From positions 1 to 17,999 of the forward strand of contig NZ_JACOGK010000046.1 in the NCBI RefSeq assembly GCF_014269395.1: DNA of 17,999 bases. Reading direction: 5' to 3'. Under the pieces are notes generated by a model. The model saw only the letters and a program-made list of their open reading frames with translations, was not told the origin of the DNA and made no database searches. Of the stretch, positions 1,934 to 17,999 are shown in pieces. Each line of letters begins with the position of its first letter. The stretch's first letter is position 1. A program made the translations under genes and the position numbers. The stretch comes from Megasphaera hominis (lineage in GTDB: Bacteria > Bacillota > Negativicutes > Veillonellales > Megasphaeraceae).

Positions 1934-1967
1934 AAAAAAACAACAGCCTCTAAGAGACCAGAGGCTG
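1934..1967 (-). terminator. Intrinsic terminator after cobD
   Basis: On the minus strand CAGCCTCT (1960-1967) pairs with AGAGGCTG (1944-1951) around an 8-nt loop, followed by TTG and a run of seven T (1934-1940). It lies about 30 nt beyond the cobD stop codon and ends the cobalamin operon. Confidence 0.85.
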
Positions 1968-1994
1968 CGTTTTGTTATGATTGAGTTATGCTAT

Positions 1995-3023
1995 TTACAG
2001 CGGTTTTTCCGTACTTTTCGCGGTCAAACAAGCGCGCAGGTTATGGATGAGGCGCTCGTTTTCACACTGCGTGCGGACAGCAAGTCTAAAGAAATACGGC
2101 GTAAGACCGGGATAGTTCCCACAATCACGTAGGAGAATACCTTCATTTTGAAGGTTCTGTCTTAATACATGAGCCGGCAGGTCTTGGCGCAAACTCTGGA
2201 CGAGGATAAAATTGACCGACGGCGGCCAAACACGGAGATGCGGCAGCTTTTGGAGCTCGCCATAGAGATATTTTCCTTCGGCTTGTACAAAGGCCTGCGT
2301 TCTGGTTAGGTATTCTGTGTCCTGCAGAGCCGCGACACCGGCCGCCTGAGCCAGGACGTTGACGTGCCATACGTCGGTATGGGTCTCAGCTGCGGTGACC
2401 AGTTCCGGCGCTGCCACGGCAAAGCCCAGACGCAGGCCCGGTAGTGCAAAGATCTTCGTCAGAGAATGGAGGACAATGAGCCGGGGATAGGAGCGCACCA
2501 AATCAGCAACGCTATACTCTCCTCCATCGCTGCGGAAATCAATGAACGATTCATCTATGACGACGTACGTGTCCGTGTGCTGCAAGGATTCTAAAAGCTG
2601 CATGACCTCACGACGAGGCAGTAAATTCCCTGTAGGATTGTTGGGATTCGCCAAGAACAAGCAATCGAAGTGACAAGCCTCAGCGGCCAAAGCCCCTAAA
2701 TCCGGTTGGAATCCCGCCTCCATCTGAAGAGGCCAATACACCACGTCGGCATGAACAGACACAGCCGCCCGGGCATACTCACTAAAAGAAGGAGCCGGAA
2801 TCAAGACCCGCTTAGGACGCAGAACCTCCATGAGAAGGTACAACAACTCCGCCGCACCATTCCCAGGCAGGATGAATGAAGTTTCGAGACTGTAGAAAGA
2901 AGAAATAGCAGCCCGAAGCCCCCGGCACTCCGGATCCGGGTAATGAATGATAGAGTTTAGGTGAGAAAGAATTGTGTTTTTTACAGATAAAGAAAGACCC
3001 AAGGGATTAATATTTGCACTATA
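1995..3023 (-). CDS. cobD: CobD, L-threonine-O-3-phosphate decarboxylase, exon 2
   Basis: This exon encodes residues 21-362 of a PLP-dependent aminotransferase-fold enzyme. It decarboxylates threonine phosphate to (R)-1-amino-2-propanol O-2-phosphate, the arm that CbiB attaches to the corrinoid. Seen: it opens with YSANINPLG, the conserved N-terminal motif of CobD. Then come GNGAAELLY (cofactor phosphate loop), NPNNPTGN, DESFIDF and SLTKIFALPGLRLG, whose lysine (residue 210 of the joined protein) should form the PLP aldimine. The frame is closed by a TGA four codons before the splice junction (KQNQ|YSA), and no start codon precedes NPLG, so this piece cannot be translated as a normal gene alone. 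The missing start lies at 4017-4076 beyond a group I intron. The joined protein of 362 residues has normal CobD length. A histidinol-phosphate aminotransferase is the main alternative, but the motif and operon favour CobD. Confidence 0.92.
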   Translation of the reverse strand, partial: YSANINPLGLSLSVKNTILSHLNSIIHYPDPECRGLRAAISSFYSLETSFILPGNGAAELLYLLMEVLRPKRVLIPAPSFSEYARAAVSVHADVVYWPLQMEAGFQPDLGALAAEACHFDCLFLANPNNPTGNLLPRREVMQLLESLQHTDTYVVIDESFIDFRSDGGEYSVADLVRSYPRLIVLHSLTKIFALPGLRLGFAVAAPELVTAAETHTDVWHVNVLAQAAGVAALQDTEYLTRTQAFVQAEGKYLYGELQKLPHLRVWPPSVNFILVQSLRQDLPAHVLRQNLQNEGILLRDCGNYPGLTPYFFRLAVRTQCENERLIHNLRACLTAKSTEKPL

Positions 3024-3137
3024 CTGATTTTGCTTTCATGCTTTCCCATTTTGCCTTCCCCATGGTGGGGAGGGTGGTCCGATAGGACCGGGAGAGGAGA
3101 AAACGGTAGCTCTAACGTTGATGCAATGAAGCACTAA

Positions 3138-3392
3138 CGAAGCCGGGAAAGAGGGTATTTATAAAAATAATTTTTGTAATTACCCTCTATCGACCGCGGA
3201 CGAAGCCGCGCCCACTTTCCCCTATAAGGGGAAAGCCATCGATTCACATACTAAAAAAAATATATAGCTTTCTATATAAAAAACTGTGATTTAAGATATG
3301 CGAGCAGAAGGCTTTCCCCTTATAGGGGAGAGTACGGCGAAGCCGGGAGAGAGGGTATTTATAAAAAATAATTTTTGTAATAATTACCCTCT
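3138..3392. repeat. Tandem pair of palindromic repeats, 200 bases apart
   Basis: Two direct copies of the same module lie inside the cobD intron. Each has CGAAGCCGGG followed by GAGGGTATTTATAAAA..TTTTTGTAATTACCCTC, which is itself an inverted repeat (3138-3188 and 3338-3392). Each is also associated with a CTTTCCCC-TATAA-GGGGAAAG palindrome (3215-3235 and 3312-3332). The copies differ by small indels and substitutions. They look like mobile, REP- or MITE-like intergenic repeats and carry no protein. A degenerate relative sits at 145-170. Confidence 0.75.
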
Positions 3393-3441
3393 CTCCCCGG
3401 TTATAGAACTTTAATGGATCCACGTTTTAACTATTAGTTGG

Positions 3442-3596
3442 CTACTAGATTGAATGACTTCAATCTAGTAGTAGTTAGGCCGTATCGTGCACACAGGCAC
3501 GATACGCCTCTTCCGAGCGCTTCGCGCCCACCTGTTCCCCTTCCTGCGTCCTTTTTGCGGACGCAGGAACCACAGCATGCACACAGGCATGCTGTG
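3442..3596. other. Cluster of four perfect hairpins in the intron periphery
   Basis: Four perfect hairpins follow one another. 3442-3471 has a 13-bp stem CTACTAGATTGAA with loop TGAC. 3481-3506 has a 10-bp stem CGTATCGTGC with loop ACACAG. 3541-3569 has an 11-bp stem TTCCTGCGTCC. 3571-3596 has a 10-bp stem CACAGCATGC with loop ACACAG. The second and fourth have the same 6-nt loop and the same closing GC bases but otherwise different, fully compensated stems. On the intron RNA the loop reads CUGUGU. Role unknown; they may act as peripheral folding modules of the ribozyme or belong to an inserted repeat. Confidence 0.8.
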
Positions 3597-4016
3597 CCCA
3601 CCATGGGGAAGGCAAGGGAAAGCAAATTTCACACGGGGGCGCTGGGCCCGTGCAGTTCTCTTTTTTGAACTTCTTGCACTTTCGTGCAAGCATAGACTAT
3701 ATCTTATCCCTTTTCAGGGCCTATCCGCTTCGGTGCGCTTGCACCTACTTCCTTTTGGGAATAGTCGTTGAACCTTGCCTTGTTCGGGCCTTGGCTGCTG
3801 ATTGTCCATTTTTTCTGGCACGTAGGGTTTGACCGTATGCTATACAGTAGATTTTTTCTGCTTTCGCGGCCTTCACGTTTAGGTTTGTTTCAGCCTTGCG
3901 TTGTGGCTCTGCTGTCTTTAGGAGTTTCCAGCAATTCAGATAGTTTGGCGTGGCCTTGGCCACTGGTCATACAGGTTGCCCTGTATGCTGACTGGTGCAG
4001 GGGTGTTCCCTCGTTA

Positions 4017-4076
4017 ATCAAGCCATTGTTTGCTTGGGTCGTTGTAGATGTTGCCTCCGTGTTCAAAGGGTTGCAT
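4017..4076 (-). CDS. cobD: CobD, exon 1 (N-terminal 20 codons)
   Basis: An ATG at 4074-4076 opens a 20-codon frame, MQPFEHGGNIYNDPSKQWLD, that runs straight into a TAA formed by the first three intron bases. HGGNIY is the conserved N-terminal motif of CobD proteins, and WLD is what normally precedes the (F/Y)SANINPLG found at the start of exon 2. The joint GAT|TAT keeps frame and motif. A consensus ribosome binding site AGGAGG (4083-4088) stands six bases before the ATG, inside the end of the threonine kinase gene, which this exon overlaps by 14 nt. This suggests translational coupling. Without splicing only this 20-residue peptide would be made. The segment between HGGN and SANIN is a few residues shorter than in Salmonella CobD. 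Confidence 0.93.
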
Positions 4077-4932
4077 GGATTCCCTCCTTTTGGATGCGCA
4101 CGCCGCCGCTGATGAGGCGGACTGTGCGGTAGTAGGTGTAGGTGCCAAGGGTGCCGGCTATGGTCTTGGCTGTTTCTTCTATGTCTGCTTCTCTTCTATC
4201 TGCCGGGAAGAGGATGCCGCAGATGGTGCCGCTGTGGGCTGTGTTGACGCCTAGTGCACCGTGTTGCTTGGCCAGTCTGATGAGCTGTTCCAGGTCCGGT
4301 TTGGGCAGGTATGGCTGGTGCGCTACGGCGCTGCGCGTGGCAGCTTTGCCTAGTGTTTCTGCTGTCACTTTGTCTTTCAGGCTGGCCAGGGCCTGGGCTG
4401 CTGCTTCTGTGTGCGCTGGTACGAGCAGGTCCGTGGCGGCGTGAAAGTCTTCTGTTTGGACAATGCCGCCGGCGTCTAAGATGGCAATTTTCATGGGCGG
4501 TACAGGGCCGTACGTACGCAAAATGTCGCCGGTGCTGTAATTGACTAAGGCCAGGCCGTGGGCGAAGACGCCGTCTACGGCGTCGATGGTAGCGGCGAGG
4601 TGCCCTATTTCTGCTGCTGAGAGGGTCTTCCCTAGTGCCGTGGCGACGGCGACGCTGACGGCGGCAATATCGGCCGTGCTGGAGGCCATGCCTTTTCCCG
4701 GCGGCAGCTGCGATTGGATGGAGAGGCTGTAGGGAAAGGCCGGCTGGCCCAGATAGGCTAAGGTAGCGGCCAAGGCTGCTTTTGCTTTAGGTTGTAGAGG
4801 CCCTTGCTCGCCTTCGTGCACGGTGGCCGTGCTGTAGAGGTCGATGGGACAGGTGAGCAAAAAGGGTGTGCCGTGCCAGCGGCCTTGAATGAATTCGCCG
4901 CACGAACCGGGGACGGAGACGGATAGGTGCAC
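4063..4932 (-). CDS. pduX: PduX-like L-threonine kinase (GHMP kinase family)
   Basis: This 289-residue protein is an ATP-dependent kinase expected to phosphorylate L-threonine to O-phospho-L-threonine, the substrate of CobD. Seen: the three GHMP-kinase signatures, with N-terminal PGSCGEFIQG (residues 8-17), the ATP-binding PPGKGMASSTADIAA at about residues 75-89, and a C-terminal NTAHSGTICGILF motif. The start is a GTG at 4930-4932 preceded by GGGGAGG (4940-4946), which overlaps the cbiB stop codon. The gap to cbiB is only four bases, and cobD begins within its last codons. The operon position between cbiB and cobD supports the threonine kinase call over other GHMP kinases. It acts in the cytoplasm. 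Confidence 0.88.
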   Translation of the reverse strand: MHLSVSVPGSCGEFIQGRWHGTPFLLTCPIDLYSTATVHEGEQGPLQPKAKAALAATLAYLGQPAFPYSLSIQSQLPPGKGMASSTADIAAVSVAVATALGKTLSAAEIGHLAATIDAVDGVFAHGLALVNYSTGDILRTYGPVPPMKIAILDAGGIVQTEDFHAATDLLVPAHTEAAAQALASLKDKVTAETLGKAATRSAVAHQPYLPKPDLEQLIRLAKQHGALGVNTAHSGTICGILFPADRREADIEETAKTIAGTLGTYTYYRTVRLISGGVRIQKEGIHATL

Positions 4933-7541: not shown

Positions 7542-8474
7542 TCATTTCTGCTCGCGGACGATATAGATTTGCCGTTTCTTCGTTTCCAAATAGATTTTTG
7601 ATAAATAAAGCCCGATAATGCCGAGGCTGAGCATCATAATGCCGCCTAAGAAGGTAATGATGCAGACTAGGGACGACCAGCCGGCGACGTTATTGCCCCA
7701 AATGCAGGAACGGATGAAAATGAAGGCTAAAGCCAGGAAGGATAGGACGCACATGATGATGCCCAGGACTGACGCTGCATAAAGGGGGACGACTGTATAG
7801 GCTAAGATACCTTCAATGGAATAACGGAAGAGGTTCCAAAAGGACCATTTCGTCTCACCGGCACTGCGTTCAATATTGTCATAGGAAAGCCAGACTGTAT
7901 GGAAACCTACCCAGCTGAAGATACCTTTGGAAAAGCGGTTGTATTCCCGGTCGGCCACGACGGCGTCTACCATCTGCCGGGACATCATGCGGAAATCCCT
8001 GGCGCCATCGACGATGTTCGTCTTGGAGATGGCGTTGATGAATTTATAAAAGAGTTTGGCAAAGAAAGAACGCAAGACCGGCTCACCTGTACGCGTATCC
8101 CTGCGCGTAGCGATGCAGTCGATCTCCTCCCCTTCTGTATGGAGCATACGCCACATCTTAGGCAAGAGGGACGGCGGGTCCTGGAGGTCTACGTCCATGG
8201 TGGCTACATAATCGCCCTTGGCCATGGAAAGGCCAGCATAGAGGCCTGCTTCCTTGCCGAAATTGCGGGAAAAGGAAATGTAGTGCACCCTTTCATCCTT
8301 TGCATGCAACTGGCGCAAAATGGACAGGGTCTTGTCGCGGCTGCCATCGTCGATGAAGCAGAATTCAAGGTCCGCATCAATCTGCTTTTCGTACTTCAGT
8401 ATTTCGTTGTAGAAGATTTCAATGGTCGCCTCTTCGTTGTAGCACGGGACGACGAGGGATAGTAATTGTGACAT
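7542..8474 (-). CDS. GtrB-like polyprenyl-phosphate glycosyltransferase
   Basis: A 310-residue family-2 glycosyltransferase of the GtrB/DPM1 type. Such enzymes move a sugar, commonly glucose, from a nucleotide donor to undecaprenyl phosphate on the cytoplasmic face of the membrane. Seen: N-terminal VVPCYNEEATIEIF, the FIDDGSRDKT nucleotide-binding motif, and the acidic metal-binding motif MDVDLQDPP (about residues 97-105). Two hydrophobic segments at about 230-255 and 265-290 form the usual C-terminal membrane anchor. The C-terminus is basic. It is the last gene of the locus, 29 nt after the flippase, so it may provide a lipid-linked sugar for side-chain modification of the polysaccharide. 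The partner GtrA-type flippase and a GtrC-type transferase are not seen nearby. The sugar cannot be read from the sequence. The ribosome binding site is weak. Confidence 0.88.
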   Translation of the reverse strand: MSQLLSLVVPCYNEEATIEIFYNEILKYEKQIDADLEFCFIDDGSRDKTLSILRQLHAKDERVHYISFSRNFGKEAGLYAGLSMAKGDYVATMDVDLQDPPSLLPKMWRMLHTEGEEIDCIATRRDTRTGEPVLRSFFAKLFYKFINAISKTNIVDGARDFRMMSRQMVDAVVADREYNRFSKGIFSWVGFHTVWLSYDNIERSAGETKWSFWNLFRYSIEGILAYTVVPLYAASVLGIIMCVLSFLALAFIFIRSCIWGNNVAGWSSLVCIITFLGGIMMLSLGIIGLYLSKIYLETKKRQIYIVREQK

Positions 8475-8503
8475 AGACAGGTTCCAACCTTTATAAGTAT
8501 ACT

Positions 8504-9940
8504 TTAAATATGTAATTTACTCCTCGCTTTATTAAGTACAGCATAAATCAGATTATCTTTTAAGGCAAGTAGTCCTATAAAATATACGATTCCGCCAACC
8601 GAAGAGATTATAATTGTATAAAAGAATGTAGGCCTTGCATATTGGCCTATGGCATATACCATGATGAACATAATTATTCCAACTAGCCAATACATACGTG
8701 AAATAGAAAGAATACGCTTCAGATGAAGGTCATGTCGCACCATGTAAAACTGAACAATGGTTACCAACCATTCTGTCAACAGTGTCGCCAGTGCCACACC
8801 CACAGCTTGATAACGGGGAATCATATATAGGTTCATGCAAAGATTAAAAATAGCCCCCATGGTGACGGACAAGGTCAATTCATTCTGCCTGTTCGTAGGA
8901 ATTAAGTATTGAATGCCCGTCACATTGCTAAGGCCAATGGCAATGATAATGCCGCTAATGACCTGTAAGACCGTCGTCACCGGTTCATAGCCTGGGCCAA
9001 AAAACCAAGGGACAAAGCTCGGTGCTACGGCCATGAGGCCTAAGCACATGGGAATCGTAAGAAACCACGTAAAGCGATAGGACCGCATCATATAGCGCTC
9101 TACGTCTTCCTTTAAGCCATGGGCATAGGCATAGGAAATACGCGGCAACATGACCGTCCCCAAAGACGTGGCAATAGTGAGAAGTAGCTTAACGATCTTG
9201 TCAGCCTGTTCATAATAGGCATTTTCTGCGTAGGAACCGGCTAATACGCCAAGCAGTGTCTTATCCATAACGATATAAATCTGAATGGCAATCTGAGGCA
9301 AAAAGAGCTGTAAAATAACGCTAAAGTTACGAAAAGGCTTCCATTCTTTCACAGGTACCTTGTGCACATATTGGGGCACATAGAACCAAATCAAGACGCC
9401 GGAAATGATATTCATAGCCCCCATGAGAGCCGTATAGGCTAAGAGATCTGCTGGTTCATGAATGAGGACGAAAATGAGGACGACGTTGGCAATACGCACG
9501 AGAAAGTTACGGAATACGATTTTGCCAAACTCTTCCAGGCCTTGAAAGAACCAGGAAATATCGAATAAGACAGCTACAATGTTGAGAGCTTGGAGCCAAT
9601 AGATCGTATGGGATACGTGCCACGACGAAACGAGGAAATAGTACACGACCATACTGGCACCGACAAGTACGAATCGCAAGACATTCACTTCAAAGAAGAT
9701 ACGGCTCAATACGTAGTCGTCATCTTGATGGTAGGCAATTTCCCGCTGGGCATAATTGGCAACGCCCAGATTGGCCACTAAGACAAAGTACGTGACAATA
9801 GAAAAGGTAAAGCTGTACTCACCTATGCCATCAGGTCCAAGGACACGGGATAAGTAAGGGATCGTAATAAAAGGAGTGATCAACGTAAGAATTTGATAAC
9901 TCAAATTATAGATGTAGTTTTTAGTAATACTTTTAGACAT
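8504..9940 (-). CDS. wzx: Wzx-type oligosaccharide flippase
   Basis: A 478-residue polytopic membrane protein of the polysaccharide transport (PST/MATE-like) superfamily, expected to flip the undecaprenyl-diphosphate-linked repeat unit across the inner membrane. Seen: about 12-14 hydrophobic segments over the full length. The N-terminus NYIYNLSYQILTLITPFITI is followed by PYLSRVLGPDGIGEYSF, the standard opening of Wzx/RfbX proteins. The ATG is preceded by CAGGAG about nine bases upstream. It lies after the rml genes and before the GtrB-like gene. Base composition is somewhat lower in GC than in the rml genes, as is common for flippases. Substrate specificity is unknown. Confidence 0.92.
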   Translation of the reverse strand: MSKSITKNYIYNLSYQILTLITPFITIPYLSRVLGPDGIGEYSFTFSIVTYFVLVANLGVANYAQREIAYHQDDDYVLSRIFFEVNVLRFVLVGASMVVYYFLVSSWHVSHTIYWLQALNIVAVLFDISWFFQGLEEFGKIVFRNFLVRIANVVLIFVLIHEPADLLAYTALMGAMNIISGVLIWFYVPQYVHKVPVKEWKPFRNFSVILQLFLPQIAIQIYIVMDKTLLGVLAGSYAENAYYEQADKIVKLLLTIATSLGTVMLPRISYAYAHGLKEDVERYMMRSYRFTWFLTIPMCLGLMAVAPSFVPWFFGPGYEPVTTVLQVISGIIIAIGLSNVTGIQYLIPTNRQNELTLSVTMGAIFNLCMNLYMIPRYQAVGVALATLLTEWLVTIVQFYMVRHDLHLKRILSISRMYWLVGIIMFIMVYAIGQYARPTFFYTIIISSVGGIVYFIGLLALKDNLIYAVLNKARSKLHI

Positions 9941-9984
9941 TACGTATACTCCTGCGTCCGGAATTTTACCTTAATTATGATTTA

Positions 9985-10596
9985 TTACTCAAAGGCAAAG
10001 GTTTCCTTCAACCCCAGCCACTGCTGATCTTTATCACTAAGGTTCAAGGGCGTGCCATCAGACAAGGAATAGCCGGCTGCACTGGCAGAGCCGGAATAAG
10101 CTCCCGTAACCTGTGGCCAGACGATGCCGATTTCCGGATCGTTCCAGGCCATGCCGCCTTCGTCGTTGGGATGCCAAAAGTCATTGACCTTGTAGCAAAA
10201 TTCAGCTTCATCGCTGAGGACGAGGAAGCCATGGGCAAAGCCTTCAGGAATGAGAAATTGCTTTTTATTTTCTTCGGTCAGCTCAATGCCATACCACTTA
10301 CCATAAGTTTCAGAACAGCGCCGCAAATCTACGGCCACGTCGAAGACGCTGCCGCGTACGGCGCGGACGAGCTTGCACTGAGGATAGTGTTTTTGGAAAT
10401 GGAGGCCACGCAGTACGCCCTTCGTGGATTTGCTCTGATTGTCCTGAACGAAATTGATGTGAAAACCGGCTTCTTCCATGTCTTTTTGGTTGTACGTTTC
10501 CATGAAATAACCGCGGGCATCGCCGTGGACGGCCGGTTCAATGACGCACAGGCCTTCGATGCCACCTACGTTTTTCGTTACTTTGATCTGTCCCAT
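9985..10596 (-). CDS. rmlC: RmlC, dTDP-4-dehydrorhamnose 3,5-epimerase
   Basis: The third step of dTDP-L-rhamnose synthesis: it epimerises C3 and C5 of dTDP-4-keto-6-deoxyglucose. Seen: a cupin-fold protein with HGDARGYFMETYNQ near residues 24-37, the active-site LRGLHFQKH histidine segment, and EGFAHGFLVLSDEAEFCYKV with the second conserved histidine and tyrosine. The start is placed at the ATG 10594-10596 (203 residues, MGQIKVTKN...). It has an AAGAGG ribosome binding site eight bases upstream and begins four bases after rmlD ends. A longer in-frame extension of 19 residues would overlap rmlD and is not like the family. Confidence 0.95.
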   Translation of the reverse strand: MGQIKVTKNVGGIEGLCVIEPAVHGDARGYFMETYNQKDMEEAGFHINFVQDNQSKSTKGVLRGLHFQKHYPQCKLVRAVRGSVFDVAVDLRRCSETYGKWYGIELTEENKKQFLIPEGFAHGFLVLSDEAEFCYKVNDFWHPNDEGGMAWNDPEIGIVWPQVTGAYSGSASAAGYSLSDGTPLNLSDKDQQWLGLKETFAFE

Positions 10597-10600
10597 TGTA

Positions 10601-11524
10601 TTAGCCTCTTTTCTCTGTTTCTTGTTCCCAGGCAATATAGCGTTGCAACGCATCCTGCCACGCCGGCAATGGCCGAAAGCCCATTATTTCAAGTTTGCTC
10701 GTATCTAAACGCGAATTAAAGGGCCGCGCAGCCTTGGCAGCACCGTATTCGGCGGTCGTCACGGGAATGACTTTGACATCACAGCCGGCTTGGCGGAAGA
10801 TTTCACAGGCGAAATCGTACCAGGAAAGGTAGCCGCCACTGTTAGTGACGTGGTAGTAGCCATACTTGTCTGATGATATCATGTCTGCTAAGGTGATTGC
10901 CGCATCAGGCGTATAGGTAGGCGTACCGATTTGATCAGCTACGACGCGCAGCGTGTCGTGTGTTTTGCCCAGATTGAGCATGGTCTTGACGAAATTCTTC
11001 CCATTGGGGCCAAAGACCCAGGCAATGCGGACGATGAAGAAGCGCTGCAGCGTTGTGGCCACGACTTTTTCACTGGCTAGCTTGGAAGCGCCGTAGACAT
11101 TGAGAGGTGCAAAGTCCTGGCAATCAGCCGGCCAGGGTTCCGTCCCTTGGCCGTTAAAGACGTAGTCCGTGCTGATATGGACCATGACGGCATCTATATC
11201 CCGGCAGGCTTCGGCTATGTATTGCGTGCCTAAGACATTGACAACCCAGACCTCATCCTTGTTTTCTGCTTCCTCTGCCGCATCGACAGCCGTCCAGGCA
11301 GCGCAATGGATGACTGCCTCTGGTTTTACATCCGTAAGGACGGCGTGGACACGGTCTCTAGCGGTAATATCGAGCTGTACATAAGGTACCTTTTCTAGTG
11401 GGCCTGGCAGGCCGCTATAGATTTCTTTCGTGCCGCTTATGGTAACGTCGTGGCCGCGGCGCACGAGTTCTAAGGCTGTGTCATAACCAAGCTGGCCGTT
11501 GACACCGGTAACGAATACTCTCAT
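10601..11524 (-). CDS. rmlD: RmlD, dTDP-4-dehydrorhamnose reductase
   Basis: The final step of dTDP-L-rhamnose synthesis: NAD(P)H-dependent reduction of the C4 keto group. Seen: an SDR-fold protein of 307 residues with the nucleotide-binding glycine motif VTGVNGQLGYD at the N-terminus, HISTDYVFNGQG, and catalytic YGASKLASEK (Tyr and Lys). The ATG at 11522-11524 overlaps the rmlB stop codon as ATGA. An upstream in-frame extension of 22 residues inside rmlB is rejected because the glycine motif should lie at the N-terminus. Neighbours are the other three rml genes in the order A-B-D-C. Confidence 0.95.
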   Translation of the reverse strand: MRVFVTGVNGQLGYDTALELVRRGHDVTISGTKEIYSGLPGPLEKVPYVQLDITARDRVHAVLTDVKPEAVIHCAAWTAVDAAEEAENKDEVWVVNVLGTQYIAEACRDIDAVMVHISTDYVFNGQGTEPWPADCQDFAPLNVYGASKLASEKVVATTLQRFFIVRIAWVFGPNGKNFVKTMLNLGKTHDTLRVVADQIGTPTYTPDAAITLADMISSDKYGYYHVTNSGGYLSWYDFACEIFRQAGCDVKVIPVTTAEYGAAKAARPFNSRLDTSKLEIMGFRPLPAWQDALQRYIAWEQETEKRG

Positions 11525-12543
11525 GACCTGCCTCCGTACATATTTTGATAATATTGCTGGTATTCGCCAGAAATGATATCCTGCCACCACGCTTCATGGG
11601 TCAGATACCATTGGATCGTCTTCTTGAGACCTGTGGTGAAGGTCGTTTCCGGGAGCCAGCCTAATTCGTCGTGAATCTTCGTCGGATCGATGGCGTAGCG
11701 GCGGTCGTGGCCTTTGCGGTCCGTCACATGAGTAATAAGGCTTTCCGGTTTATGAAGCTCCTGGCAAATGAGCTTTACAATGTCGATATTGCGCATTTCG
11801 TTGTGACCGCCGACGTTGTAGACTTCCCCAGTTCTCCCCTTCCGGACGATGAGGTCTATAGCTTTGCAATGGTCTTCTACATATAGCCAATCCCGCACGT
11901 TTAAGCCATCGCCGTAGACGGGCAAGGGCTGGTCGTGGAGGGCGTTGATAATCATGAGGGGAATGAGCTTTTCCGGGAAATGGTAAGGCCCGTAGTTGTT
12001 GGAGCAGCGGGAAATAGTAACGGGCAAGCCGTACGTCCGGTGATAGGCCAGGACCAGGAGATCTGCGCCAGCTTTGGAGCTGCTGTAAGGGCTCGACGTA
12101 TGGAGGGGCGTCGTTTCCGTAAAAAAGAGGTCCGGCCGGTCTAAGGGCAGATCGCCGTAGACTTCATCTGTCGATACCTGATGGTAGCGGACGATGCCAT
12201 ATTTACGGCAGGCATCCATGAGAACCGACGTGCCGATGATGTTCGTCTGCAGGAAGATTTCCGGATTTTCAATAGACCGGTCTACGTGGCTTTCGGCAGC
12301 GAAATTGATGACGATATCAGGCCGTTCTTTTTCAAAGAGATTGTATATTCCTTCTCTATCGCAAATATCTAAGCGGACAAAGGTAAGATTATCCTGATCC
12401 AGAACATCGGCCAAGGTCGAGAGATTGCCGGCGTAGGTCAGCTTATCGACACAAAGGATCTGATCTTCTCGGTGCTGCTGCAGCATATAGTGGACGAAAT
12501 TGCCGCCAATGAAGCCGGCACCACCAGTTACGAGTATTTTCAT
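11521..12543 (-). CDS. rmlB: RmlB, dTDP-glucose 4,6-dehydratase
   Basis: Converts dTDP-D-glucose to dTDP-4-keto-6-deoxy-D-glucose with a bound NAD+. Seen: 340 residues, N-terminal [13 protein letters not shown], the [12 protein letters not shown] segment, the catalytic STDEVYGDL (Thr-Asp-Glu) and [12 protein letters not shown] (Tyr-x3-Lys), plus [16 protein letters not shown], all typical of RmlB. The start ATG (12541-12543) overlaps the rmlA stop codon as ATGA, and its own stop overlaps the rmlD start. Translational coupling along the whole rmlA-B-D block is therefore likely. Confidence 0.97.
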
Positions 12544-13433
12544 ATGTCTTCCTCCCTAAATAGAACCTTGCCATCGACAACCTTTTGCAGGTATTGGCCG
12601 TACGGTGATTTCCCATAGGCCCGGGCACTGACTGCCAACGATTCCCGATCGATCCAGCCGTTTTGGAAGGCAATTTCTTCAGGCATGGAAATGTGGATCC
12701 CTGAGCGCGTTTCAATGGCCCGCACATATTCTGAGGCAGCAAAGAGGGAGTCCATAGTCCCCGTATCGAGCCAGGCGTAGCCCCGGCCTAAGGTGACGAC
12801 GTGGAGGTTGCCCTGTTCCAGATAGATTTTATTCAGATCCGTAATTTCCAGTTCACCTCTGGCCGAGGGCTTCACTTGTTTAGCGTATTCGCAGACGTGA
12901 TGGTCATAAAAGTAGAGGCCTGTCACGGCGTAATTAGACTTCGGCTGTTGCGGTTTTTCTTCGATGGAAATGGCCTTGCCTGCTTTATCGAATTCGATGA
13001 CGCCAAAGCGTTCCGGATCTTCTACGTAATAGCCAAAGACTGTAGCCCCTCCTTCCATAGAGGCTGCAGCCTTTAAATGGCGCGTCAAACCGGCCCCGTA
13101 GAAGATGTTGTCACCTAAGATCATGGCACAGGAATCATAACCGATGAAATCTTCCCCTAAGATAAAGGCCTGAGCTAAACCATCAGGCGAAGGCTGCACT
13201 TTATAAGACAGTCTAATTCCATAATGAGAGCCATCGCCTAAGAGACGTTCGAAATTAGGCAGATCACTAGGCGTAGAAATGATGAGAATATCCTGAATCC
13301 CTGCCAGCATGAGCGTCGACAAAGGATAGAAAATCATGGGCTTGTCGTATACAGGCAGTAACTGCTTCGATGTAACCCGTGTCAGCGGATATAAGCGTGT
13401 GCCGCTGCCGCCAGCTAAGATGATACCTTTCAT
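12540..13433 (-). CDS. rmlA: RmlA, glucose-1-phosphate thymidylyltransferase
   Basis: Makes dTDP-glucose from dTTP and glucose 1-phosphate, the committed step of the rhamnose pathway. Seen: 297 residues beginning [18 protein letters not shown] (nucleotide-binding loop), [15 protein letters not shown], the metal-binding ILGDNIFYG and the [21 protein letters not shown] block, all hallmarks of the short RmlA form. The ATG has AAGGAG about seven bases upstream. It is the first of four tightly packed rml genes. Composition rises sharply in GC compared with the two glycosyltransferase genes just upstream. Confidence 0.97.
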
Positions 13434-13490
13434 TATTAACTCCTTTTAATTAACTATAATGCACTCACTTCATAATTATAACTTTATTTC

Positions 13491-14453
13491 TTAAAATCTT
13501 ATTGTCGATGCCATCAAATCCTTTGCTAATTCCTTTGTTGCAATTAAAGGAGACTGATAGCATTTATAAAATACAAAAGACATTTTCACTATTCCAAAAA
13601 AGCAGTTGCTTTTAATATAACTTGCACGTAAATGAAAAAAATCTAAATATTTCTTTATATCAATAGAAGCATGCGCAATCCTTTTTGGATATCTAGATAT
13701 AACTTCAGAAAGGATAGCTTCTCTTTTTTCAATCCCATCTACATGTATTTTTAATTTTTTTCTTACGTTCGTCCATAATATTACTTTTTCTTTAATAGTT
13801 TTTGGAACACCCCCTACCACGTTATTTTCTTGTCTATATTTCATCATACAGTAATTTACAGGGACCACTTTATCAAATAGTATAGCGATAAGTCCTAACC
13901 ATTCATCATGAAATGCTATTGTACTAAAAGGCTTTGCTTCATCATATAGTTCTTTCTTAAATGCGCATGCGCTTCCTTGCACAACATTTTTTACGCCAAG
14001 AATGTTAAAGTTATTTGCAAGGAAATCCTCATAATTAAAACGTAAGATTTTCCAAAAGGAAGGGTATAATGGATGTAAGTTCCCGTCTACCAGGCAAGCA
14101 TCATGAAAAGCCATAATGACTTCTTCATCATTGTCGAATATATTCGCCACTTTTTCTATTTTTTCAGGAAGCCAAACATCATCCTGATCGCTTAAAAACA
14201 CTATATCTCCATGACAAAGTCCAATGGCTTTTTCGAAGTTCTTTCTAAATCCGAGATTGATTTCATTCCGTATAATGGTCGATTTAATAGTTGATACAGA
14301 AAGTAAATTCTGGGCTATTTCTACAGTATTATCACTTGAACAATCGTCACAAATTATTATTTCATCCGGCTTACGTGTTTGATAAATAATACTTTCCAGT
14401 TGTTCCTTTATATGCTTACTACCATTATACGTACACATAGCTACTGAAATCAT
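13491..14453 (-). CDS. Family-2 glycosyltransferase, probable rhamnosyltransferase
   Basis: A 320-residue cytoplasmic or membrane-associated glycosyltransferase, expected to add one sugar to the lipid-linked repeat unit. Seen: N-terminal SVAMCTYNGSKHIKEQL, the IICDDCSSDNT nucleotide-binding motif, and VFLSDQDDVWLPEKI (about residues 80-94). The DQDDVW form of the DxD motif is typical of GT2 enzymes annotated as rhamnosyltransferases. The start is the ATG at 14451-14453 with GGGAGGA seven bases upstream; an earlier TTG overlaps that site and is rejected. The gene is much richer in AT than rmlA or the DUF4422 gene, which suggests a different origin. The dTDP-rhamnose donor is inferred from the adjoining rml genes only. 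Confidence 0.85.
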   Translation of the reverse strand: MISVAMCTYNGSKHIKEQLESIIYQTRKPDEIIICDDCSSDNTVEIAQNLLSVSTIKSTIIRNEINLGFRKNFEKAIGLCHGDIVFLSDQDDVWLPEKIEKVANIFDNDEEVIMAFHDACLVDGNLHPLYPSFWKILRFNYEDFLANNFNILGVKNVVQGSACAFKKELYDEAKPFSTIAFHDEWLGLIAILFDKVVPVNYCMMKYRQENNVVGGVPKTIKEKVILWTNVRKKLKIHVDGIEKREAILSEVISRYPKRIAHASIDIKKYLDFFHLRASYIKSNCFFGIVKMSFVFYKCYQSPLIATKELAKDLMASTIRF

Positions 14454-14514
14454 AATATATTCCTCCCGCAAAAAATGATATTTTCTTTATTTTATCTCTA
14501 TTCGTGTATTTCAT

Positions 14515-15348
14515 TCAGCAATCTGGATATTTGCCAAACTTTTTTCTATAATAATCTCTAAAGCCCTGATATATATACAATATTTTTTTTAGCTTATCAG
14601 GTTCACCCAAAATGATTTTTGTAAACCATTTCAACATTGCTTTGTATTCTAAATATCTTCGTTCGGGATATTTATGACAAACATATAATTTGTTTCTAAA
14701 AATATAATATTGTCGGATGTATCCTTCGTTCAGAGTATTAAAGTGAAATCCTAGGATATTCTTATGAAGAGGATGCCCTAAGGCGTGTATCAAAATATTT
14801 CTTTTATATTTTAACAAGCGATAGCCTGCTTTATTACAGCGATAACAAAATTCGTGATCCACTTCGTCGATGAATAGATTTTCATCAAAACCACCGCAAC
14901 ATATTGCTGTTTTAATACGTATAATATTTCCAGATGTAATACATTTTTCAACTGGCTCTAAGAGTATGGTTTTATTTTCATCATTACTTCCAGATGCAGG
15001 GCATATTCCATATACATCATCACCAAGTTTCGTTAAGCACTGTATATACTCTGGAAATTTCCCGTCAGCAAACCGCGAATCCTGATCCATAGTAAGTAAC
15101 CAATCATATTGTCCTTCTGCCATTCGTAAAGCTTCATTTAAAGAATAAGAAATCCCTTTATTTTCTTTATGAGGGATATATATTATATTGGAATGTGGAA
15201 TAATCTTACTTAGGAGATTTTCGTTTGTATGTTCAGAATTATCAATGATATATAGTTTTTGTATATATGGTGCGTAAGATGAAATATTTTTATAAACAGA
15301 TTCATCCGGATTGTATAGAATCACAACACCAGCAATAGATAATGACAT
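14515..15348 (-). CDS. Family-2 glycosyltransferase, rhamnosyltransferase type
   Basis: A 277-residue GT2 enzyme. Seen: N-terminal IAGVVILYNPDESVYKNI, YIIDNSEHTNENL and WLLTMDQDSRFADG (DxD-type metal site at about residue 97). Then comes CCGGFDENLFIDEVDHEFCYR, the acceptor-side acidic motif. This set matches the WbbL/RfbF group of rhamnosyltransferases, and the neighbouring dTDP-rhamnose genes support that. The ATG has a modest GAGAGG site six bases upstream. It is strongly AT-rich like the next gene downstream. Linkage and acceptor are unknown. Confidence 0.85.
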   Translation of the reverse strand: MSLSIAGVVILYNPDESVYKNISSYAPYIQKLYIIDNSEHTNENLLSKIIPHSNIIYIPHKENKGISYSLNEALRMAEGQYDWLLTMDQDSRFADGKFPEYIQCLTKLGDDVYGICPASGSNDENKTILLEPVEKCITSGNIIRIKTAICCGGFDENLFIDEVDHEFCYRCNKAGYRLLKYKRNILIHALGHPLHKNILGFHFNTLNEGYIRQYYIFRNKLYVCHKYPERRYLEYKAMLKWFTKIILGEPDKLKKILYIYQGFRDYYRKKFGKYPDC

Positions 15349-15501
15349 AAATACCTCTCAAACATGTTATTACAACTATTACGGCTGTCAACAAAACCAC
15401 TTCAGGAAGATAAAAAACTTCATCTTTCGAGTTAAGCAAAACGCACGAAAGCAAATTGACAGAATGTGTAAATTCCACCAATTTGCTATGCTTATTCTCT
15501 G

Positions 15502-16269
15502 CTATTGTCCCCTACCCAAAAGCTTCCGCTTCAAAAAGGCACCGCCTTTTTTGAACCAATTTTGTTTTTCCATAAAGGACACGTTTTGTTCTGTATAGGG
15601 AATGTTATTCTGTTCCAGCCAGACATCGAGGAGGAGTTCGCTGACGAAGCCGTAAATGCGGGATTCGTACGTATCCCAGCCGGTAATATCGACGCGCTCT
15701 TCCAGGGTAAAGAGGATGTCGAAGAGCCACGTCATATAGGCGTCGAAGAGATCCTTGCGCATGACGAACATGTTGAACATGTGAGCCCAGGTGCGGTTCA
15801 TGATGCGGTCGAAGGCAAGCAGGTAGTCCGGATAGCGTTCCTTGATGATGGCTTCCGTAATATCGAGGCCTTCCTTGTGGTGGGCATGGTTATAATGAGA
15901 GCGGTTCGTTTCGATGTAGTAGCGGCGTTTCCCTGGGACGACGACGGAGCGCCGGGAGAGGATGCCTTCCCAGTCAGCGTGACTGAGGATTTGCTGCCGT
16001 TTCTCTTCTATACCGTGTACTTCTTTCCGCGTGAAATAGCGGCGGTAATGGACGAGACCGATGTAGTCGGCGTCAAGGTTTTTCCAGGCCCAATAAAGGC
16101 CTGTGAGCTCGCAGAAATGAGGGTTCTTCCCTGATATATTAGGGCCTGTATCGTCGCGCGTAAAACCCAGGTCGGCCTTGCCGGCAGCGCCAACGTGGAG
16201 GGGCAAATAGCTCGGGTCCTGAGGCATCCAATATGGTTTATGAGCTGCAATGAGTATTTGTATATTCAC
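15502..16269 (-). CDS. DUF4422 glycosyltransferase
   Basis: A 255-residue protein of the DUF4422 family, found in capsule, EPS and O-antigen loci and generally regarded as glycosyltransferases. Seen: N-terminal IQILIAAHKPYWMP, HVGAAGK, then LTGLYWAWKN and DYIGLVHYRRYF, the most recognisable motif of the family (about residues 67-78). A late THMF-like segment (RTWAHMFNMFVMRKDLFD) follows. The start is a GTG at 16267-16269 preceded by AGGAAGGA. It follows wbaP by about 25 nt and therefore probably adds the second sugar. The C-terminus is basic (KKGGAFLKRKLLGRG), which may help membrane binding. The sugar is unknown. Confidence 0.85.
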   Translation of the reverse strand: MNIQILIAAHKPYWMPQDPSYLPLHVGAAGKADLGFTRDDTGPNISGKNPHFCELTGLYWAWKNLDADYIGLVHYRRYFTRKEVHGIEEKRQQILSHADWEGILSRRSVVVPGKRRYYIETNRSHYNHAHHKEGLDITEAIIKERYPDYLLAFDRIMNRTWAHMFNMFVMRKDLFDAYMTWLFDILFTLEERVDITGWDTYESRIYGFVSELLLDVWLEQNNIPYTEQNVSFMEKQNWFKKGGAFLKRKLLGRGQ

Positions 16270-16294
16270 TACGATAGTTCCTTCCTATGGAAGC

Positions 16295-17740
16295 CTAGTA
16301 GGCTCCTCTTTTTCCTAAGACAACGCCAACTGTCCGCCAGATGAGGACAATATCGAACCAGACGCTCCAATTGCGGACGTACCAGCTGTCCATTTGGACG
16401 CGTTCGTCGTAGGAGACGTCGCTGCGGCCGCTGGTTTGCCACATACCGGTGACGCCAGGGCGGACCATGTAGAAGTCTGCAATCCATTTGCCATAGCGTT
16501 CGACTTCGTCGCGGATAATGGGCCGCGGGCCGACGAGGCTCATTTCCCCTTTGAGGACATTTAGGAGCTGGGGCAATTCGTCTAGGCTGGTTTTACGCAG
16601 GAAAGCGCCGCTTTTCGTAATGCGCGGATCGTCTTTGAGCTTAAAGTCTTTTTCCCATTCAGCGCGAATGGCCGGGTCTTTTTCCAGAAGCTCTTCCAGC
16701 TTTTTATCAGCATCCATAACCATGCTGCGGAACTTGTAGCAATCGAAGGACTTGCCGTTCTTGCCGATACGGCGGTGCTTGAAGATGACCGGCCCTGGTG
16801 AATCGCGGTAGATCCAAAGGGCAATGACCAAGAAGAGGGGCGACAACGCGATGAGGCCTAAGGTTGTACAGACGATATCGAAGACCCGCTTGACCCAGCG
16901 GTTGTACCAATGAGCCAGGTTGTTGCGCACGCTAAAGGCCACGATATGGCCATCGATGAGGCTTTCCATATCGAGGGTTGCCAAGGGCACCCGGCCCATA
17001 TCGGGAATGAAGGAAATGGTCTTCACCAAGGGCTGTAAGCGGTAAATGATGTCTTGAATACCATCGTTATGCAGGCCTGGAGCGATGACCAGCACGTGGC
17101 GCACGCCCGTCTCCTGAATGATCTTTTCGGCGTCACAAAAGCCGCCTAAACAAGGCATCATGGAAGCTACGGGCTCTTCCGGCGTATTATCTTCCAGGTA
17201 ACCAATGAAATCGTAGCCCAAGCCGGCATCACTCTTCAGGTTCCCTAAGACCAAAGCCGCCGTCTTCCCGGCCCCTAAGACGAGGACCGGAATCTGGAGA
17301 ATTCCGAAGTGCTCGAAAATTTTCTTCGCCACATAGCGGAAGGCAACGAGGAAACAAAAAGAAAAAATCGCCATAAAACCCGTGAAAAGACGGGACGTAC
17401 TACCTGCCACTTCCCAAACGTACATGAGTAAAATGAGCGTCACCATGGCATACACAGTAACCCGGAAAATCGCCGCCATGGTGCGCCAAAACTGCATACG
17501 CCGCGTGTAAAGAGAACTGATCTGCATAAAAAGCAAAAACACAGCCGGCCCGATGACATGGGAACTAAGCCAGGAAATCCGCAACACCGGCGAAGGAATC
17601 AAGAAATTCCGTAAACTAAAAGCGGCCCATTCAGCGCACCACACGGCGAAATAATCGACGCACACCAGCACCAAGGGCAATAGAAAAAAGCTATATTTGT
17701 TCTCGAAAGGAATACTCCCCGAAGCATTAACTTTACGCAT
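16295..17740 (-). CDS. wbaP: WbaP-type undecaprenyl-phosphate sugar-1-phosphate transferase
   Basis: This enzyme starts repeat-unit assembly by moving a sugar 1-phosphate from its nucleotide onto undecaprenyl phosphate in the inner membrane. Seen: four N-terminal membrane segments, then a Rossmann-like domain with [19 protein letters not shown]-terminal bacterial sugar-transferase domain follows: [13 protein letters not shown] re-entrant helix, [21 protein letters not shown], catalytic Asp-Glu in [24 protein letters not shown], and [12 protein letters not shown]. The start is the ATG at 17738-17740 (481 residues) with GGGGAG seven bases upstream, giving normal WbaP length. Longer in-frame starts, up to 59 residues further, would run across the promoter and are rejected. 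WbaP usually transfers galactose, but the sugar here is not certain. It is the first gene of the locus. Confidence 0.93.
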
Positions 17741-17821
17741 AGATACACTCCCCATTGTGTATGAATAAGTTGATATAAGTTTTGTGAATGCATTACTTTT
17801 GTAGATAAAAGAATACATTCT

Positions 17822-17851
17822 ATTATACCTATATACAGGGAACACTGTCAA
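17822..17851 (-). promoter_or_regulatory. Consensus promoter of the polysaccharide locus
   Basis: On the minus strand a perfect TTGACA (17846-17851) and a perfect TATAAT (17822-17827) are 18 bases apart. Transcription would start near 17814, giving a leader of about 70 nt before wbaP. The upstream edge of the promoter is only about 35 bases from the IS end at 17886, so any operator further upstream has been separated from it. Confidence 0.88.
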
Positions 17852-17885
17852 TGCGGGGTTGTGTGGTTTGGTTTGGATGTGGAGG

Positions 17886-17999
17886 TGCGGACAAAAAGTT
17901 GGACCTGACATGATCACTAAATGTCAGGAGGTTTAAAATGTATTCTTATGAAAAACGAATGAAAGCAGTCCTGTTGCATCGAGACGCAGGTATGGGACT
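17886..17999 (+). mobile_element. Left end of an IS3-family insertion sequence (partial)
   Basis: The sequence TGCGGACAAAAAGTTGGACC (17886-17905) looks like an IS3-family left inverted repeat. It pairs imperfectly with the complement of the right end at 108-127. It is followed by a small inverted repeat, TGACAT (17906-17911) and ATGTCA (17921-17926), and then the transposase start. The element continues beyond the window. The boundary is placed at the TG expected for IS3 ends. Confidence 0.75.
17938..17999 (+). CDS. IS3-family transposase OrfA, N-terminal fragment
   Basis: An ATG at 17938, preceded by AGGAGG (17926-17931), opens a frame that runs off the window. The visible residues MYSYEKRMKAVLLHRDAGMG match the usual start of IS3/IS150 OrfA proteins (SYExRMKAV.L), which carry a DNA-binding helix-turn-helix. 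The gene lies in the same orientation as the transposase tail at the left edge of the window. Confidence 0.82.
   Translation, partial: MYSYEKRMKAVLLHRDAGMG

Follow-up and report, generated by a model that had tools for sequence, protein, structure and literature searches.

A group IA2 intron of IStron type, predicted to self-splice, within the cobD gene of a Negativicutes bacterium

IStrons can be seen as a ribozyme and a transposon that have entered a pact. According to Tourasse 2014 (PMC4227781), they are known to insert in many unrelated bacterial protein genes, those of group A following a TTGAT, ATTAT or TTTAT target and ending in TCAG; the same study describes a Fusobacterium intron that lies beside TTGAT and is not an IStron. 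The Bacillus recA, nrdE and flagellin genes also hold group I introns, and the early in-frame stop of many bacterial group I introns has been viewed as a folding aid (Hausner 2014, PMC3984707).

The intron described here occupies 3024..4016 on the minus strand of the window, the whole 17,999-nt stretch of DNA that was analysed (features below are on that strand unless stated otherwise). We consider it likely to be an IStron-type group IA2 intron in cobD, predicted to self-splice and descended from an IStron that has lost its whole transposon half. With the group A IStrons CdISt1, EfISt1, MfISt1 and MspISt1, as described in PMC4227781, it shares an IA2 core with P7.1, P7.2, P9.1 and P9.2, the TTGAT target, the U.G pair at the 5' splice site, the TCAG end, and a position inside a protein gene that is rejoined in frame. 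Unlike them, it has no tnpA, tnpB, IStron-like 3' segment or left- or right-end hairpin that we could find, and a 586-nt palindrome array occupies the place of the IS; with the IS half wholly absent, the argument for IStron descent is made by the core, TTGAT and TCAG. The group B IStron BcISt1 has variants in emetic B. cereus that likewise lack ORFs and occupy the same site in related strains (PMC4227781); they differ in their GG target and CGG end, and in having a short inverted-repeat stem where the window has a long array.

The first-pass annotation of this DNA had presented the intron as a rarity. That judgement holds insofar as an open-access library yielded no report of a group I intron in cobD or cobalamin biosynthesis genes; it is weakened in that IStrons land in many unrelated protein genes, so that finding one in a B12 gene surprises less than finding a lone intron there would. 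The Bacillus introns mentioned above lie in host genes other than cobD, and to our knowledge their borders are not of IStron type.

Exon 1 of cobD (4017..4076; 20 codons, MQPFEHGGNIYNDPSKQWLD) starts at 4076, where it overlaps the end of the GHMP kinase gene, carries the HGGN(I/V) N-terminal block of intact CobD proteins, and ends in CTTGAT, while exon 2 (1995..3023) supplies 342 codons and the stop. Read unspliced, the frame runs GAT^TAA after 20 codons (the caret marks the splice site), stopping at the first intron codon, and no CobD coding sequence is present from 4016 to 3024. Joining 4076-4017 to 3023-1995 gives 362 codons free of stops, and the in-frame joint GAT^TAT proposed at first pass is borne out by the product, a 362-aa CobD that scores 316.4 bits against NCBI TIGR01140 (cut-off 290.55) and matches the solved CobD structure 1lc5 over residues 14-355 (E 7.1e-69). 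The suggested alignment to uninterrupted cobD genes of relatives gave the same answer: the 12 best cobD loci from 380 Negativicutes genomes (L055 included), which are the loci read across the insertion point, are all continuous there (12/12), with (W/V)(L/I)D^FSAN or DYSAN. Among these 380 genomes the best listed CobD is 53% identical, and in genome contigs a separate search for cobD found 8 loci, 30-42% identical. Group I introns were found in 0/8 genomes of the first cobD scan, and no uninterrupted CobD of the window's lineage was seen among the 120 matches listed of 7745. The class to which G256 belongs was taken to be Negativicutes on the strength of its cobD loci, of which one is 99.7% identical to a protein named Selenomonas ruminantium and one 92.8% to Megasphaera sp. 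SW808.

The Rfam group I model RF00028, named at first pass as a check, matches at 4029-3673 with 75.2 bits (gathering score 50; E 8e-18); the match is full-length, covering all 253 model positions (1-253), and RF00028 is the sole Rfam family above threshold in the window. The elements follow in order. The P2 hairpin (3969..3986) shows two-sided changes in 6/7 pairs; the catalytic core, from the P3 5' to the P3 3' strand (3720..3943), holds P4 (5' strand 3933-3928, 3' strand 3801-3796), P5, P6, the P7 5' strand (3766-3762), P7.1 and P7.2; P8 and the S element (3695..3719) come next, S being the P7 3' strand (AAGATATAGTC, 3705-3695); and the P9.1 and P9.2 hairpins (3632..3690) form the final portion common to IStron introns. 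The P, Q, R and S stretches had been placed correctly by eye, with agreeing coordinates for P4, the P7 5' strand and S. Just after S, the window has UAUG where the 14 aligned relatives have UGUG, so that one possible P9.0 pairing may be weaker.

The pairings were assessed in alignment A1, which comprises the window and 14 relatives (15 sequences; L020, a near copy of L013, and L032 and L034, cut by contig ends, are omitted), against a named structure of 77 pairs from P2 to P9.2 including the P7 pseudoknot. Across the 15 aligned cores, 93.0% of cells are paired and 46/77 pairs show a two-sided change. None of 500 shuffled controls reaches any of the five measures, and slid controls pair 34.6-43.2% of cells; the window sequence was the template for drawing the structure, which gives it an advantage over its slid versions, while the two-sided changes are independent of that choice. 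The core pairings claimed at first pass thus lie far above both controls. The conserved group I pairings P3, P4, P6, P7 and P8 are present with covariation, P7 and most of P4 being invariant; P7, P9.1b and five of the six P4 pairs do not vary and are therefore uninformative for covariation, either way. P2.1 as drawn is paired in just 40-45% of cells, which in our opinion reflects alignment slippage there. A group I intron inside cobD is supported by the agreement of covariance model, covariation, splice-site comparison and CobD alignment.

The 5' splice site reads CTTGAT^TAACGAGG at 4017/4016 and the 3' splice site AAAATCAG^TATAGTGC at 3024/3023, giving an intron of 993 nt. Both borders are those of group A IStrons: the target CTTGAT^ contains TTGAT, the intron ends in TCAG, and at AAAATCAG^TATAG the exons abut with no target duplication. 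It may be the chemistry of the intron, and not the IS, that dictates the TCAG end. The 5-bp P1 with a terminal U.G that had been drawn at first pass is recovered, UUGAU at the exon end pairing with an internal guide GUCAG (3988..3992, read 3992-3988). This pairing was followed in the 17 relatives whose 5' end is readable, namely L011, L012 and 15 Negativicutes loci (among which L013 and L020 are copies in one genome), leaving aside L010, which has no guide by the pattern, and L036, truncated at its 5' end. Exon end and guide covary in 17/17, where several loci offer more than one TTxAT and the candidate at the usual spacing was chosen, a bias toward pairing. Eight relatives have TTGAT with GTCAG, the combination of the window, and nine have TTTAT, ATTAT or CTTAT with GTAAG, so the exon changes from G to T where the guide changes from C to A. 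All five positions pair in 15/17, and four pair in the ATTAT cases L011 and L032. The P1 loop of the window is 24 nt long and contains a 4-bp hairpin, compared with 52-61 nt in IStrons, exceptions being L025 (100), L029 (29) and L031 (32). P10 has one pair at most, by eye.

Downstream of the core lies a palindromic tail of 586 nt (3039..3624) in place of the IS component, made of a closing stem and many enclosed hairpins. The stem arms, 3624-3597 and 3069-3039, pair over 9 + 19 bp (28 bp) with one 3-nt bulge; group A IStrons likewise have an inverted-repeat stem closing the region after P9.2, of 6-10 bp in the published account, and the present one is longer. A 15-nt link (3024..3038) runs from the stem to the 3' splice site and ends in TCAG. 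Folding of 3024-3630 gives a minimum free energy of -296.3 kcal/mol against a mean of -171.3 in 20 shuffles (z -18.9). On the transcribed strand the tail has no ORFs of at least 80 aa, and Pfam (E 0.1) found no match in six of its eight open pieces of at least 30 aa, nor in two plus-strand ORFs (94 and 114 aa) lying over the intron. Neither the comparison with five IStrons nor Pfam on the pieces revealed an IS200/IS605 component in the window copy, be it with ORF B whole or as a remnant, and no subterminal palindromes of that family or GACTTTAGTC-type right end were seen; GUGAAAUU, which follows P9.2, is not among the published IS-start motifs (GAACGA or its listed variants). Compared with the five IStrons by blastn and tblastx, the tail gave chance AT-rich or short matches only, and a tail consisting of IS remnant was rejected because its likeness to them is at chance level. 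We also rejected a cobalamin riboswitch or other RNA switch, since in an Rfam search of 3000-4100 at E up to 5 all matches but RF00028 were far below gathering scores; the sub-threshold ones were mostly microRNA models on the palindromes.

Short palindromic repeats are seen at window positions 3502-3541 and 3214-3402, and pieces of the tail are common to 17/380 genomes of the class. It is conceivable, though somewhat unlikely, that the tail is a nested MITE-like element with its own 28-bp terminal inverted repeats, inserted into an ORF-less IStron, an account compatible with the one preferred here: arms of 19 bp perfect and 9 bp enclose the tail, and its pieces (e.g. 3541-3502) are short dispersed palindromes of other Negativicutes genomes. 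Against this, neither the 380 Negativicutes genomes nor the phage and plasmid collections hold a full-length copy, no clear target duplication is visible by eye, and, going by the L037 match, the arms that close the stem seem to be the dispersed repeat itself, present twice in inverted orientation.

The question of ancestry turns on the relatives of the core. Part of the element is matched in 33/380 Negativicutes genomes: 15 match the core (68-85% identity over aligned stretches), one (G457) a 27-nt core piece, and 17 short tail pieces. The core also occurs in E. faecium plasmid elements (about 72%) and a C. difficile plasmid element (71%), the plasmid and phage matches being IStron-type introns of Enterococcus and Clostridioides plus phage introns, one of the latter with an annotated intron endonuclease (L071). 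These 15 genomes provide 16 core loci that were read, and 12 of them carry TnpB, a remnant of tnpB or the right end of an IS; the remaining four (L025, L032, L033, L034) are cut by contig ends and have a left-end hairpin. The 3' end was examined at ten loci, of which eight have TnpB (in pieces in L068) and a GACTTTAGTCGTGGGAGGTTCAG-like end; TnpB was identified by Pfam in L062 and L029 only, is annotated in L012, and was elsewhere named by likeness. A left-end hairpin lies within the P1 loop in 15/17 relatives; L029 and L031 have none and retain TnpB and the right end. In L025 (G480:C110) this hairpin is tandemly duplicated inside its 100-nt P1 loop.

IStrons without tnpB exist. L066 (G476:C13:36000-39200; also L024), at 499 nt the smallest complete IStron-type element among those examined, has no tnpB and, by our reading, both IS end hairpins, and L026 (G443:C42), an 892-nt IStron lying in frame in its host gene, keeps only a C-terminal tnpB remnant with both ends intact. 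L066 resembles the window intron in belonging to a Negativicutes genome, lacking tnpB and lying in frame in a metabolic gene, PTS EIIC-like by a match just below cut-off; it differs in its length, its TTTAT target and its retained left- and right-end hairpins. In L068 (G464:C16:6100-9000), a 2081-nt IStron splits in frame a CPSase_L_D2 domain that we read as biotin-carboxylase-like.

For nine relatives (L011 and L012 were not joined), the element was removed from TTxAT^ to TCAG^ and the 300-base flanks were joined. An open frame crosses the joint in 8/9, clearly in L066, L026, L061, L062, L065 and L068, and weakly in L029 (14 codons past the joint) and L031 (27 codons past, in competition with a 94-aa frame); in L063 no frame is open before the joint. 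Pfam matches span the joint in L066 (PTS_EIIC, 30.5 bits, cut-off 30.7) and L068 (CPSase_L_D2, 74.4 bits), and lie beside it in L065 (start of an FAD-binding domain) and L061 (a weak ABC transporter match), with nothing in 4/8 pieces. From these joints and matches, IStron-type elements do occupy metabolic genes in Negativicutes, and the border rule applied to the window holds elsewhere.

Alternatively, the window intron could have no IStron in its past and be a plain group IA2 intron, of phage type or bacterial, that reached TTGAT in cobD by reverse splicing or homing and lost any endonuclease gene, with repeats filling the gap. We regard this as unlikely, yet several observations suit it. TnpB, an IS hairpin and a 3' segment like that of IStrons are all missing from the window copy; its core is common to introns of L009, L010 and Enterocloster phages, one L009 intron having TTGAT with GTCAG; the Fusobacterium intron beside TTGAT reported in PMC4227781 is not an IStron; and the core tree does not place the window, with 5/21 inner branches starred, long branches, and the window flagged for odd letter make-up. 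Against it, the window's nearest rows by path and identity are the Negativicutes IStrons L024 and L023, 12/16 Negativicutes core loci have IS parts and the contig-cut others a left-end hairpin, and the TCAG 3' end suits group A IStrons; the Pfam search found no endonuclease domain in six of eight tail pieces or the two plus-strand ORFs, though a degraded remnant could escape it. By the AU test, a clade of IStrons alone (p 0.237) is not rejected, and neither is one that also includes the window (p 0.287).

Several viral contigs deserve a separate remark. L009 carries two group I introns with the same core, the first, IStron-like, at TTTTGAT with guide GTCAG. In another scan, two viral contigs showed introns with the same S element as the window that are distinct from the window intron. 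The 18-mer at the intron 3' end was found in two viral contigs, both times in unrelated phage-type sequence.

More than one strain seems to carry the insertion. The best protein match to the joined CobD, P0001 (92-94% identical), starts MGKAKWESIKQNQ^YSAN(INPLG), and two successive frames at the end of the window intron translate as MGKAKWES and KQNQ^YSAN; P0001 thus looks like the product of DNA that has this intron end less one base, which suggests that the 15-nt link ends in the same way there. Because P0001 begins with translated intron end, the insertion appears to be shared. P0002 (96% identical) is a fragment of 202 aa that lacks the N-terminus, and among the listed matches the next one of full length is 49% identical. 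That the element splices poorly, with cobD decaying or read from exon 2 only, is improbable: the tail is long and repeat-filled and P0001 is recorded as starting inside the intron, but the core retains the pairs that are invariant in the family, exon 1 its HGGNIY block and frame, exon 2 is intact in two records differing by 6-8%, and the joined protein scores above the CobD cut-off.

Upstream of cobD lie the genes for cobyric acid synthase (7419-5878), cbiB (5881-4937) and, directly upstream, a GHMP kinase (4932-4063); a terminator-like hairpin, known by consensus match only, follows the cobD stop (1943..1968), and a terminator scan, likewise of consensus matches, gave no site inside the intron on the transcribed strand. 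For the cobyric acid synthase, identity is 98% with one metagenome cluster and then drops to 73%, and the named matches, at 66-70%, include Selenomonadaceae, Mitsuokella and Megasphaera; from these matches the host is likely a Negativicutes bacterium that has not been cultured. Window positions 7542-17917 hold a surface polysaccharide cluster with glycosyltransferases, a flippase-like protein, a DUF4422 protein and a sugar transferase, together with dTDP-rhamnose genes identified by eye.

In the mechanism that we propose for the IStron-type intron, the cob genes would be transcribed through the intron, and a ribosome starting on exon 1 would halt at the UAA that is the first intron codon, leaving the core free to fold. 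The exon-end UUGAU would pair with the guide GUCAG, guanosine would cleave directly after the U.G pair, and attack by the freed exon after the terminal G of UCAG would then produce GAT^TAT and the full 362-aa CobD. The tail with its 28-bp closing stem may hold the distant 3' splice site near the core, much as the shorter inverted-repeat stem of other IStrons may do. Control of splicing by B12 was considered, and we found no evidence for it.

Splicing, descent from an IStron, loss of mobility and the role of the tail are what we infer from the comparisons above, and the locus is probably a mobile element settled as a permanent intron. A fuller account, plausible but tentative, is that of a domesticated IStron: it would have shed transposase, nuclease, guide RNA and both ends, become fixed in cobD of a Negativicutes lineage, and had its 3' half rebuilt as a self-closing hairpin array that keeps the two splice sites together, so that B12 synthesis would depend on a permanent, immobile intron. 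If this is true, a ribozyme-only copy in a metabolic gene of diverged strains would represent an end point of IStron evolution, an ordinary intron derived from a mobile element. The Negativicutes elements, among them the insertions in the PTS EIIC-like and CPSase_L_D2 genes, are comparison material, and with the window intron one could examine how permanent group I introns come to reside in bacterial protein genes and how a long 3' tail is tolerated.
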